Assembly (NCBI GenBank): GCA_021201315.1 | Contig: JAJQFG010000126.1 | Coordinates: 1 to 33,671, forward strand | Direction: 5' to 3' | Source of the DNA: Erysipelotrichaceae bacterium | GTDB taxonomy: Bacteria > Bacillota_I > Bacilli_A > Erysipelotrichales > Coprobacillaceae | Length of the DNA stretch: 33,671 nucleotides | Shown here: positions 26,608 to 31,048 of the stretch, piece by piece | Layout of the letters: each line of letters starts with the position of its first letter | Numbering within the stretch: position 1 is the stretch's first letter | The notes under the pieces: generated by a model | Told to the model about the DNA's origin: nothing | Seen by the model: only the letters and a program-made list of their open reading frames with translations | Databases searched by the model: none | Translations under genes and position numbers: made by a program

Positions 26608-27417
26608 ATGCCAGAATTACCAGAAGTAGAAACGGTTAGACAAACATTAAGAAGTTTTATATTAGGAAGACAAATTATAGGTATGGATATTTATTATTCT
26701 AAGATGATAGAAAATGATATTGATGATTTTTATAGATTAGTGAATCAGCATTTTATTGAAGTTGATAGATTGGGTAAATATTCGATTTTTATTTTGGATG
26801 ATGATGCTTTTATTTCTCATTTAAGAATGGAAGGAAAGTATCATATTGTAAATAGTAGTGAGCCTGTTAGTAAACATACCCAAGTTTCTTTTCATTTAGA
26901 TAATGGTGAGGATTTAAGATATTTAGATACTCGTAAGTTTGGTAGAATGAGATTGGTTGATAAAGATCATTATTTAGAACAATTACCATTATCAAAGTTA
27001 GGTAAAGAACCTTTTGATATTACAACAGATGAATTATATGATTTATTGCATCATAGTTCTTTATCTATTAAAAGTGCATTACTTAATCAAAATATTATGA
27101 GTGGTATAGGTAACATCTATGCTAATGAAATATGTTTTGCAATGCGTATAGATCCTCGAACTAAGGCTTCTAGATTATCTAAGAAACGTTGTAACGAATT
27201 AAGAGAAGTTTCTATAGATATTTTAAATAGAGCTATTCAACAAGGTGGAACAACGATTTCAAGCTTTGATGCTAATGGTATTCATGGTTTGTTTCAAGTA
27301 GAATTAAAAGTTCATGGCAAAGAAAAGTGTCCTGTTTGTAATCATCAAATAAAAAAGATATATATCAATCAAAGAGGGACTTATTTTTGCCCTATATGTC
27401 AAAAGAGGAGGTATTAG
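26608..27417 (+). CDS. mutM: Formamidopyrimidine-DNA glycosylase MutM (Fpg)
   Basis: Removes oxidised purines such as 8-oxoguanine and cuts the abasic site by beta,delta-elimination. The 269-residue protein opens with PELPEVE, whose proline becomes the catalytic N-terminal nucleophile after Met removal and whose E3 is also catalytic, so the start must be ATG 26608 rather than the upstream in-frame codon at 26590. Lysine in RLGKY, the helix-two-turn-helix region (NQNIMSGIGNIYANE) and the C-terminal zinc finger C-x2-C-x16-C-x2-C ending FCPICQ are all present. AGAAGGAAAG precedes. It begins a run of overlapping genes to dnaI, and its stop is 3 bases before the next start. Confidence 0.95.
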   Translation: MPELPEVETVRQTLRSFILGRQIIGMDIYYSKMIENDIDDFYRLVNQHFIEVDRLGKYSIFILDDDAFISHLRMEGKYHIVNSSEPVSKHTQVSFHLDNGEDLRYLDTRKFGRMRLVDKDHYLEQLPLSKLGKEPFDITTDELYDLLHHSSLSIKSALLNQNIMSGIGNIYANEICFAMRIDPRTKASRLSKKRCNELREVSIDILNRAIQQGGTTISSFDANGIHGLFQVELKVHGKEKCPVCNHQIKKIYINQRGTYFCPICQKRRY

Positions 27418-27419
27418 GT

Positions 27420-28361
27420 ATGATTCATTGGGGAATTATTGGATATGGTAGAATAGCCCAAAGATTTGAAAAAGGGTTATCTTATAGTACAACTGGAAAG
27501 CTTTATGCCATAGGTACAAAATCTCAATATCAAAAAGCAATGGATAACCATCCTGAATGTCATATTTATACTGATTATGATACACTTATTCATGATGAAA
27601 ACATTGATGCCATCTATATTGCCTTACCTCATAAATATCATTATATATGGGCTAAAAAAGCATTGCTTAATCATAAAGCAGTATTAGTAGAAAAACCATC
27701 AACATTATCAGTTGATGAAATAGAGGAATTATGTGAAATAAGTGAAAATAATAATGTATTTTTTATGGAAGCTATGAAATCAAGATTCGTTCCTATGGTT
27801 ATTGAACTAAAGAAATTACTTAATCAAGGTATTATAGGTGATATAATATCTATAGAAAATAGTTTTTGCTATAATGTATCATATGATGATCATAGTTATC
27901 TTTTTGATAAGGAACAAGGTGGTGCATTATATGATGTAGGCATTTATAATATTGCTATGATTTTAGATTTAGTTAAAAAGCCTTTATTAGATATGAAAGT
28001 AGAATATATTAAAAAATATGATTTGGATATTGATGATAAAGTTACTTTGATATATGATAATTGTGAAGTAATGATGCATAATGCGATTATGAGTGATTAT
28101 GATACATCGATGACGATTATTGGTGAAAAAGGTAAAATAGTATTATCACCATTTTATCGTCCTACCAAAATAACAGTGATATATTTAGATGGGAAAATCG
28201 AAAATTATCAAAAAGATTATGAATTTGATGATTTTTATGGCGAAATTGAAGCTGTGCATCAAGGTATGATAGATAATAGATTTGAGTGTTTAGAGTATAG
28301 TCATAAAGATATGATTCAAGGTATTAAAATTATGAAAAAAGCAAAGGAAATGATGTTATGA
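27420..28361 (+). CDS. Gfo/Idh/MocA family oxidoreductase
   Basis: 313-residue NAD(P)-dependent dehydrogenase-like protein; family members act on sugars, inositols or dihydrodiols, and the substrate here is unknown. The N-terminal Rossmann fold starts at once with WGIIGYGRIAQRF, followed by the family signature VLVEKPSTL (EKP motif), and then the C-terminal alpha/beta substrate domain with GGALYDVGIYNI. Such DVGIY-type signatures fit the dimeric-dihydrodiol-dehydrogenase-like branch. The start is ATG 27420 after GAGGAGG; the in-frame ATG at 27387 lies inside mutM. It overlaps coaE by four bases. Its place between mutM and coaE is not typical of Bacillus, where other genes lie there, and suggests lineage-specific insertion. 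Confidence 0.88.
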   Translation: MIHWGIIGYGRIAQRFEKGLSYSTTGKLYAIGTKSQYQKAMDNHPECHIYTDYDTLIHDENIDAIYIALPHKYHYIWAKKALLNHKAVLVEKPSTLSVDEIEELCEISENNNVFFMEAMKSRFVPMVIELKKLLNQGIIGDIISIENSFCYNVSYDDHSYLFDKEQGGALYDVGIYNIAMILDLVKKPLLDMKVEYIKKYDLDIDDKVTLIYDNCEVMMHNAIMSDYDTSMTIIGEKGKIVLSPFYRPTKITVIYLDGKIENYQKDYEFDDFYGEIEAVHQGMIDNRFECLEYSHKDMIQGIKIMKKAKEMML

Positions 28362-28945
28362 AAGTCATAGGGATTACAAGTTCTATAGCAGGTGGTAAGA
28401 GTACTGTTACTAATTATTTAAGACAAAAAGGATATGTTGTTTTGGATGCTGATGAAATTTCTCATCATGCTTTAGATAAAGGAGAAAGAAGTTATTATCA
28501 AGTTAAAGAGATGTTTAGAGAATGTGTGGATGAGGATAGAAATATAGATCGTCAAAAACTTGGAAAAATCGTTTTTAATGATCAAAGGATGAAAAAACAA
28601 TTAGAAGATATTATCCATCCTTATGTATCTAGTACCATGAAAAAACAGATTCAACAATGTCATCAGGATGTTATCTTTTTGGATATTCCATTGCTATATG
28701 AGGCACATTTTGAATATCTTTGTGATAAGATAATTGTAGTATATGTTGATGAAAATACACAGTGTGAACGTTTAATGAAACGTAACCATATTGATAAACA
28801 AGAAGCAAGACATCTTATGCAACAACAAATGTCAATTGAAGAAAAGAAAAATAAAGCTGATTATATATTAGACAACACATTAGGCTTTGAAGATTTATAT
28901 CAAAATATAGAAAGGATTTTAAATAGTGAAATTGTACATGAGTGA
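28358..28945 (+). CDS. coaE: Dephospho-CoA kinase CoaE
   Basis: Phosphorylates the 3'-hydroxyl of dephospho-CoA, the last step of coenzyme A synthesis. 195 residues, normal length. The P-loop reads ITSSIAGGKST with GKST intact (13-16), although the first Walker A glycine is replaced by Ser8; then the DADEISHHAL segment, the VFLDIPLLYEA motif with its Asp and the RMK-like ERLMKRNHI lid segment. The order mutM-(oxidoreductase)-coaE-dnaB-dnaI recalls the polA-mutM-coaE-dnaB-dnaI neighbourhood of Bacillus. It overlaps the previous gene (ATGA) and the next by about 20 bases. Confidence 0.93.
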   Translation: MKVIGITSSIAGGKSTVTNYLRQKGYVVLDADEISHHALDKGERSYYQVKEMFRECVDEDRNIDRQKLGKIVFNDQRMKKQLEDIIHPYVSSTMKKQIQQCHQDVIFLDIPLLYEAHFEYLCDKIIVVYVDENTQCERLMKRNHIDKQEARHLMQQQMSIEEKKNKADYILDNTLGFEDLYQNIERILNSEIVHE

Positions 28946-30158
28946 TTTTTATCGATGTGAGATATTTTATCCCCTCGATGAAATACAAAATGATATACTC
29001 TATTATCTATATCAACCTTTAATAGGATCCCAAGCTGTGCATTTATATATGATGCTTCATGTAGAAGGCAAACGTATGAAAAAGACCAAAACGTCTTCTT
29101 CTTTGTCGAGACTTATTAGTTTTTTAACCATTAGTATGGTTGATTTAGAAAAACAACTAAGATCATTAGAAGCCATTGGTTTATTAAAAACCTATGTTAA
29201 ATATCAAGATAATATAACCCAATATATCTTTCAACTCATGTCACCACTATCATTAAAAGCATTCTTTCACAATCAAATCTTAACATCATTATTAGAAGAA
29301 TCTTTATCTTCAGATGATTTAAAAAAAACAATCCAATATTTTAAAGTTTATCATGAAAATACCAATGACTATGAAGAAATCACTGCTAAATTTCAAGATG
29401 TTTTTACAATTAATCAGATCAAAAATGGTCGTATGCTTAAATATAATGAAGATATGCCAGAAGAAAAAAATAATGATATGAAATTGGATTATGATTATGA
29501 ATTGTTTTATCAAACTTTATCGGATTATCAGGTTAGTCGTAAAAAACTAAGCAATGAAGATGAAAAATATGTTATTCAATTAGCACAAGTATATCATGTG
29601 GATGCTTTAACTTTAGCAGGTTTTGTAAAGGAATCGATGGAATCACAGGGTATTAATAAGCAAATATTAAAAAATAAGATTAAAGAATATTATGATATAG
29701 ATAAACAATCAACTTTAAGTGAAGTATATCATAAGCAACCTTTACAATATCAAACCAGTGATAACAATGACTCTCCATTAGTATTACATATGAAATATTT
29801 GGATAGTATTACCCCTTATGAATTATTAAAAGATAAACAGGGTGGTAAAGAACCTGTTTATCGTGATTTAATGATTGTAGAAACATTGATGAATCAATTA
29901 GGGTTAAAACCAGCAGTGGTTAATGTATTATTAGAATATGTTTTAGGTAAAAATGATAATCGTTTGTCTAAACGCTATTTAGAAACAATTGGCTCTTCAT
30001 GGACAAGAAAACATATTGAAACTGCTATGGATGCTTATAGAGAACTTATGCATGAAGATGATATTGTTGAAGAAAAGAAGGAGATAAAAGAAGTAGAAGA
30101 TATTGATAATGAGGAGGTTAAGTCATTGTTATATAAGTTGAAAGGTGGTAGTGTATGA
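28926..30158 (+). CDS. dnaB: Replication initiation and membrane attachment protein DnaB (Firmicutes type)
   Basis: Primosome co-loader that, with DnaD and DnaI, brings the replicative helicase (DnaC in Bacillus) to oriC and stalled forks; it is not the E. coli DnaB helicase. 410 residues, slightly shorter than the Bacillus protein (about 470). The N-terminal winged-helix-like dimerisation region covers about 1-110 (FYPLDEIQNDILYYLYQPLIG), then a middle helical part and a C-terminal DnaB/DnaD-type DDBH2 domain at about 290-380, where RYLETIGSSWTRKHIETAMDA (split: YLETIGSSW, TRKHIETAMDA) resembles the Y-x-x-x-I-x-x-x-W motif. The start is GTG 28926, 9 bases after AAAGGA; ATG 28938 is an alternative without a ribosome site. 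The C-terminal tail is acidic, and it is followed by overlapping dnaI. Confidence 0.88.
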   Translation: MKLYMSDFYRCEIFYPLDEIQNDILYYLYQPLIGSQAVHLYMMLHVEGKRMKKTKTSSSLSRLISFLTISMVDLEKQLRSLEAIGLLKTYVKYQDNITQYIFQLMSPLSLKAFFHNQILTSLLEESLSSDDLKKTIQYFKVYHENTNDYEEITAKFQDVFTINQIKNGRMLKYNEDMPEEKNNDMKLDYDYELFYQTLSDYQVSRKKLSNEDEKYVIQLAQVYHVDALTLAGFVKESMESQGINKQILKNKIKEYYDIDKQSTLSEVYHKQPLQYQTSDNNDSPLVLHMKYLDSITPYELLKDKQGGKEPVYRDLMIVETLMNQLGLKPAVVNVLLEYVLGKNDNRLSKRYLETIGSSWTRKHIETAMDAYRELMHEDDIVEEKKEIKEVEDIDNEEVKSLLYKLKGGSV

Positions 30159-31048
30159 TTAAAGTGAGTAGTGAAGTGAAATATCAAGATATTTCACAAA
30201 TGAAACAAGAAAGTATTTTACGCTTATCTAAGAATAAAAACATTAAGTCTTTTTTACAAGCACACCATCTTAATGGTGATATAATGAATGATTATTGGGT
30301 AGAGTTTTTGGATTATGAAGAAGATAGTCAGATGTGTGAAAACTGTCAGTCTTTAAAGTCGTGTCCTAAAGCAAGTATCGGTATGCATAAAGTATTAAGT
30401 TATTATGATGGTCAAGTTGTTTTGGAAATGGAAAGTTGTGAATTAGGAAAAGAGTTACAGGATAAAAGAGAACTATTAGAAAAGTTTACAAGTAATATGA
30501 ATGAGGAGTTATTATTAACTAATTTGTTTGATTTGGATATTGTTAAAAATATTGATAAACTTCCACCTAATAATATAAGGGCACTTACAATGATACTTAA
30601 ATATGTTGATCATCCAACTGATAAAGGTTTATTTTTACATGGCGATGATCCTTTAAGCAATATTACTTTAATGTGTGGTATGATGAATCAGTTAGCAAGA
30701 CAAAATCATCATATTGGTGTTATTCATTTTCCTACATTTTTAATTGATTTAAAGTCAAGCTTTTCTACTAATGAAAGTAATGATTTAGAAGAAATTATGA
30801 AGATTGATTATCTTTTATTAGATAGTTTAGGTGAAGAAAATGTGACTGGTTGGTCAAGAGATGAAATATTATTAACGATATTATCTTATCGATTAATTAA
30901 TCATTTACCAACGTTCTTTACAAGTATTTATGGTTATAATGATTTAAAAAAGGTCTATACTTTAAGAAAGGGCGATGAAATGAAGGCAAAAGCTATTATT
31001 TCAAAAATACAAACACTTACATTAGAAATAATGCAAGATTTAACGTAA
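30155..31048 (+). CDS. dnaI: Helicase loader DnaI-like protein with degenerate ATPase site
   Basis: Position after dnaB and overall alignment identify the primosomal helicase loader DnaI (297 residues; Bacillus about 311). The N-terminal zinc-binding domain is kept, with C61, C64, C70 and probably H78, the spacing matching C67, C70, C76 and H84 of B. subtilis (from memory). The AAA+ domain keeps its landmarks in order but has lost catalytic ones: Walker A reads GDDPLSNITL with S168-N169-I170 in place of Gly-Lys-Ser/Thr, Walker B ends D223-S224 rather than Asp-Asp, sensor-1 Asn is Ile258 (FFTSIYG), and the C-terminal Arg segment is changed to KAKAIISK. WSRDEIL and PTFFTS are retained. Probably an ATP-independent loader or a structural adaptor; another loader may exist elsewhere. 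Confidence 0.85.
   Translation: MIKVSSEVKYQDISQMKQESILRLSKNKNIKSFLQAHHLNGDIMNDYWVEFLDYEEDSQMCENCQSLKSCPKASIGMHKVLSYYDGQVVLEMESCELGKELQDKRELLEKFTSNMNEELLLTNLFDLDIVKNIDKLPPNNIRALTMILKYVDHPTDKGLFLHGDDPLSNITLMCGMMNQLARQNHHIGVIHFPTFLIDLKSSFSTNESNDLEEIMKIDYLLLDSLGEENVTGWSRDEILLTILSYRLINHLPTFFTSIYGYNDLKKVYTLRKGDEMKAKAIISKIQTLTLEIMQDLT

Follow-up and report, generated by a model that had tools for sequence, protein, structure and literature searches.

A resident DnaI helicase loader with a degenerate ATP site in an Erysipelotrichaceae bacterium, and repeated Walker A loss among its relatives

The dnaB-dnaI locus

The window analysed here is a stretch of 33,671 nt from an Erysipelotrichaceae bacterium (contig JAJQFG010000126.1). 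It contains a dnaB-dnaI gene pair in which the dnaI start (30155) overlaps the dnaB end (30158) by 4 bases (Table 1). Start and stop agree with the initial annotation, which described dnaI as an intact frame in operon with dnaB. The dnaB gene also shows matches to NCBIfam DnaB models (E-value = 1.9e-55 and 4.5e-50, the latter under the cut-off). A frame for a Gfo/Idh/MocA-like oxidoreductase, recognised by eye at positions 27387–28361, is situated upstream of the pair between mutM-like and coaE-like genes.

Table 1. Features of the dnaB-dnaI locus, with positions in the window.
Feature	Position	Strand	Basis
dnaB (DnaB_2 family helicase-loading partner)	28926..30158	+	PF07261, E-value = 6e-11
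dnaI, 297 aa, resident helicase loader, AAA+ fold apparently without ATP site	30155..31048	+	PRK08939, AF2 model, Foldseek
N-terminal zinc helicase-binding domain, residues ~10–97; C61, C64, C70, C95 (H78)	30182..30445	+	PF07319 DnaI_N, weak match below cut-off
Degenerate Walker A, residues 163–170 GDDPLSNI (relatives GxxGxGK[ST])	30641..30664	+	Alignments, AF2 model
Retained ssDNA-contact positions K200, F203 (E. coli DnaC K143, F146)	30752..30763	+	hhalign with DnaC
Walker B: D223 retained, second acid replaced by S224; T231 and W233 retained (DnaC S177, Y179)	30821..30853	+	Alignments, hhalign
Sensor-1 position I258 (canonical DnaI: Asn)	30926..30928	+	Alignment
Arg coupler A280 and Arg finger K284 (canonical DnaI: Arg)	30992..31006	+	Alignment

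The dnaI open reading frame is the resident DnaI of the bacterium. It displays DnaI homology from end to end together with a DnaI-type AAA+ fold: the NCBIfam DnaI model PRK08939 matches residues 8–292 (E-value = 1.2e-42, under the curated cut-off), the AF2 model has a pLDDT of 88.8, and the best Foldseek matches to that model are DnaI structures, with 2w58 at the top (TM 0.83 by target). The protein can be aligned with the solved DnaI chains 4m4w, 2w58, 5he8, and 2qgz. The Pfam IstB/DnaC ATPase model PF01695 was not reported for it in the Pfam search.

ATP-site residues and predicted structure of the P-loop

The alignment to the solved DnaI chains bears out each replacement first noted by eye: S168-N169-I170, S224, I258, and the altered C-terminal Arg segment. 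Opposite GKFGVGKT of the solved chains the window protein carries G163-D-D-P-L-S168-N169-I170; G163 is kept but the Lys, both later loop glycines, and the Ser/Thr are absent. The second Asp of Walker B aligns with S224, the sensor-1 Asn with I258, and the R-x3-R coupler/finger pair with A280 and K284. Thus four signatures of an active AAA+ ATPase, the Walker A GxxxxGK[ST], the second Walker B acid, the sensor-1 Asn, and the Arg finger, are all missing. The aligned sequences show that the catalytic ATP residues acting in cis, namely those of Walker A, the second Walker B acid, and sensor 1, are gone, as are the Arg coupler and finger that act in trans.

In the AF2 model, which rests on a 41-sequence alignment, the helix that follows the P-loop strand begins at P166. 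A control model of a Walker-A-intact relative (L013) has a loop up to position 169 and a helix from K170 (169 in window numbering). The prediction suggests that the phosphate loop has turned into helix in the window DnaI.

A rearranged pocket might still bind ATP or another nucleotide and serve a non-canonical regulation, since the AAA+ fold, D223 of Walker B, and G163 are retained. We regard this as unlikely, given the residues missing from the loop, the additional loss of the Arg residues acting in trans, and the predicted helix. The substituted loops also differ by lineage (GDDPLSNIT, DEDSSRATL, G--GPNRTR), which is unlike a conserved new site.

Spread of the loss

Each of the genus's four genomes has lost Walker A; the corresponding sequences are GDDPLSNIT, GDDPISNIT, and, twice, GDDPLQNIT; the three genomes other than that of the window are MAGs. 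The same state in four species makes chance untenable and rules out sequencing error as the source of the motif loss.

Relatives in the Coprobacillaceae-like family (Massilimicrobiota, Longibaculum, Stoquefichus, Kandleria, Sharpea, Eggerthia, Thomasclavelia, and Faecalibacillus) show intermediate steps. Among 42 family DnaI sequences the Walker A GK[ST] is retained in 35, the Walker B acid in 24, the coupler Arg in 20, the finger Arg in 10, and the sensor-1 Asn in one. Outside the family, 122 DnaI sequences (43 named loci and 79 sister-family loci, with a few genomes common to both sets) all carry Walker A and the finger Arg, and each of the other ATPase residues is present in 121. The alignment of relatives proposed in the initial annotation finds a genus-wide loss, with intermediates in the family. 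The same annotation had described the hallmark positions as changed at once. The changes are real, but relatives with an intact Walker A already lack sensor 1, the Arg finger, and in many cases the Walker B acid, so the loss is stepwise and family-wide, with the window DnaI as an end point.

Several observations concern other genomes. An altered Walker A also occurs in DnaI-like proteins that score low and belong to other families of the Bacilli (f8, f16, f26), among them L358, L367, L368, and L375 (examples are NVEGSGAS, LKNAKIRL, GDYASLRS, and SNNNVARE). In L352, L357, L363, and L370 the Walker A Lys is replaced by Arg, and L372 and L374 have an altered Walker A with the Lys kept. Several small f16 genomes (0.7–1.0 Mb, 99% completeness) give no DnaI match at an E-value of 1e-12 and may lack the loader or have one that escapes recognition. 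Two sister-family genomes, G137 and G141 (98–99% complete), yield zero DnaI candidates, which may be a data artefact. In a one-contig Massilimicrobiota-like genome (genus g2), dnaI (L022, G004:C1:1881554-1882425) is frame-shifted at PTFF, either by error or in reality.

Independent losses and their apparent order

Walker A is disrupted in four lineages: the window genus, Eggerthia catenaformis (DEDSSRATL), G013 (G--GPNRTR), and G024 (APMSKEKLL). G024 is the weaker case, as the lysine is present (APMSKEKL) while the glycines and Ser/Thr are gone. E. catenaformis is an isolate. A DnaI tree built with the motif columns removed gives four Walker A changes, all forced by well-supported branches, and the helicase tree also gives four, three of them so forced. 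A single ancestral loss of Walker A is ruled out by the two trees.

All four lineages also lack the sensor-1 Asn, the finger Arg, and the coupler Arg. The coupler Arg is found in 20 of the 35 Walker-A-intact family proteins and in no Walker-A-disrupted member, and Walker A therefore seems to be the last to go. Taken from present-day states of the aligned sequences, the order of loss appears to be sensor 1 almost everywhere, then the Arg finger, then the coupler and the Walker B acid, and finally Walker A. This pattern suggests that hydrolysis was given up before nucleotide binding. In all four lineages a DnaB_2 gene is found beside dnaI, and Walker A of the helicase is intact in the genomes where DnaI has lost it.

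Selection on dnaI

Within the genus the pN/pS is 0.20–0.22 for the whole gene and 0.16–0.21 for the AAA+ part; Walker-A-intact Massilimicrobiota pairs of comparable divergence give 0.19–0.22 and 0.14–0.18, all of these ratios being approximate because dS is high (about 0.8–1.1). The AAA+ part thus evolves like that of the intact relatives, and dnaI is maintained. Ratios of DnaI distance to helicase distance overlap between lineages that lost Walker A (1.9–2.7) and those that kept it (1.8–2.6); Eggerthia and G013 lie at the top of the range. These values, obtained for the selection check put forward in the initial annotation, show dnaI under normal purifying selection.

The many conserved residues lost, together with the existence of other small Bacilli genomes without any DnaI match, could be read as decay of dnaI under relaxed selection, with loading now dispensable. 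Such decay is very improbable: the AAA+ pN/pS is close to that of intact relatives, rate ratios against the helicase are not clearly raised, the frames are continuous in the congeners (that of G001 is broken only by assembly Ns) with the operon kept, and the zinc cysteines and ssDNA-contact residues are conserved.

Zinc domain and ssDNA-contact residues

C61, C64, C70, and C95 are invariant in 41 family sequences. As zinc ligands the initial annotation had listed C61, C64, C70, and H78; the three cysteines hold, but H78 varies within the family and the invariant C95 had been omitted.

Residues K143, F146, S177, and Y179 contact ssDNA in E. coli DnaC (PMC8213410). The window DnaI carries equivalents of all four, namely K200, F203, T231, and W233, as placed by hhalign (for T231 and W233 by reading the alignment it gave). 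Among the 42 family proteins K200 is present in 42, F203 in 40, T231 (or Ser) in 41, and W233 in 42. Contact with ssDNA is at least as likely as helicase binding to be the conserved function. This conservation fits a loading role, and speaks against a DnaI that no longer loads and acts instead as inhibitor or chaperone of the helicase, with loading left to DnaB/DnaD or to self-assembly of the helicase ring. For the helicase of B. subtilis a ring-making mode of assembly has been put forward (PMC13220808), which would leave room for such a role, yet we hold this role to be the least probable of the alternatives.

Other loaders in the genomes

DciA (DUF721, PF05258) has no match in any of 43 genomes, the family included, which gives no sign that DciA has replaced DnaI. 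The window genome (G000) has one second loader, a DnaC-like gene with the Walker A GSVGVGKS on contig C97. It matches phage loader families and adjoins a gene for a phage-type DnaD-like initiator. A different DnaC-type loader with intact Walker A, 41% identical to that copy, is present in the congener G001 (C308), and Eggerthia carries a mobile-element-type DnaC loader with intact Walker A (C5). No DnaC/IstB-type loader besides DnaI was found with three queries in the congeners G002 (100% complete) and G003 (96%), where every PF01695 match listed belongs to a protein of DnaA size or above, one low G002 match falling outside the listing.

These copies raise the prospect that a mobile-element loader with intact Walker A took over loading and left the resident DnaI as a non-catalytic accessory. 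The phage-type surroundings of the G000 gene and the lack of a find in G002 and G003 make this quite unlikely, and with only 41% identity the G000 and G001 copies do not represent one fixed replacement. The initial annotation had named a second intact loader, combined with relaxed selection on dnaI, as the opposing case; the loader exists, beside a phage-type neighbour, but dnaI gives no sign of relaxed selection and two congeners gave no such gene. An unrecognised non-AAA+ loader could be present in the genus.

A probable ATP-independent loader

The reading that we favour, at a probability of roughly 0.7, is that the resident DnaI is a functional helicase loader that works independently of ATP, with no ATP binding or hydrolysis of its own. 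The first proposal for this gene, that selection maintains helicase binding in the absence of ATP hydrolysis, agrees with the genus-wide loss, the family intermediates, the pN/pS, and the lack of a second loader found in two congeners; the biochemistry and mechanism are what we infer. The protein would dock on the helicase through its N-domain and keep the ring open through binding energy, while ssDNA would be guided by the retained K/F/T/W patch. Release would not depend on ATP hydrolysis by DnaI itself; its trigger would be primase, the DnaD-DnaB system, or the helicase turning over ATP.

A precedent comes from E. coli, where DnaC needs no ATP hydrolysis to open DnaB and place it on ssDNA, and where the helicase-binding domain of DnaC suffices to activate DnaB (PMC8213410). 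The DnaI of S. aureus hydrolyses ATP under stimulation by ssDNA and loses this activity in the K170A mutant (PMC4887207). This counts against an ATP-independent loader, as the ATP site is active or needed in model species.

It is also probable, somewhat less firmly than for the window protein itself, that chromosomal AAA+ loaders of the Bacilli repeatedly become ATP-independent, stepwise in the Coprobacillaceae-like family, where Walker A went in four lineages, and possibly in further families with small genomes, so that initiation is run by a pseudo-ATPase loader. The loss in the genus, together with the independent losses in relatives, suggests that ATP use by an essential loader is dispensable in nature. 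What DnaC/DnaI-type loaders need ATP for has been asked for a long time: in vitro, DnaC of E. coli can load in the absence of hydrolysis, but mutants of its ATPase are impaired. A natural, stepwise, and repeated loss of the ATPase with fixed DNA-contact residues separates a structural from a catalytic role. The family offers intermediates that can be tested (sensor-1-less, Arg-finger-less, and Walker-A-less), including the isolate Eggerthia catenaformis.

Relation to known loaders

DnaI of Bacillus, Geobacillus, and Staphylococcus (4m4w, 2w58, 5he8) shares with the window protein the zinc N-domain, the AAA+ fold, the dnaB-dnaI neighbourhood, and the ssDNA-contact and WxRDE segments. The window DnaI differs in lacking all catalytic ATP-site motifs and in scoring below the curated cut-offs of the DnaI family models. 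The fold of DciA is unrelated to that of DnaI, and lambda P is not an AAA+ ATPase. As an ATP-independent loader DciA (PMC5109545, PMC8213410) resembles the mode of action proposed here, but it is absent from the family. The phage loader lambda P opens the helicase (PMC6391071) and is a protein unrelated to DnaI. A further parallel is with ATPase mutants of E. coli DnaC (K112R and others; PMC8213410), which bind helicase and load on ssDNA without hydrolysis, as the window DnaI presumably does. Those mutants are laboratory-made and impaired in activation or delivery, whereas the loss in the window genus is natural and fixed. The literature searched, whose coverage is incomplete, gave no example of a DnaI that lacks its ATPase by nature. 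ATP-independent loaders of another kind (DciA) and ATPase-dead DnaC mutants are already known.
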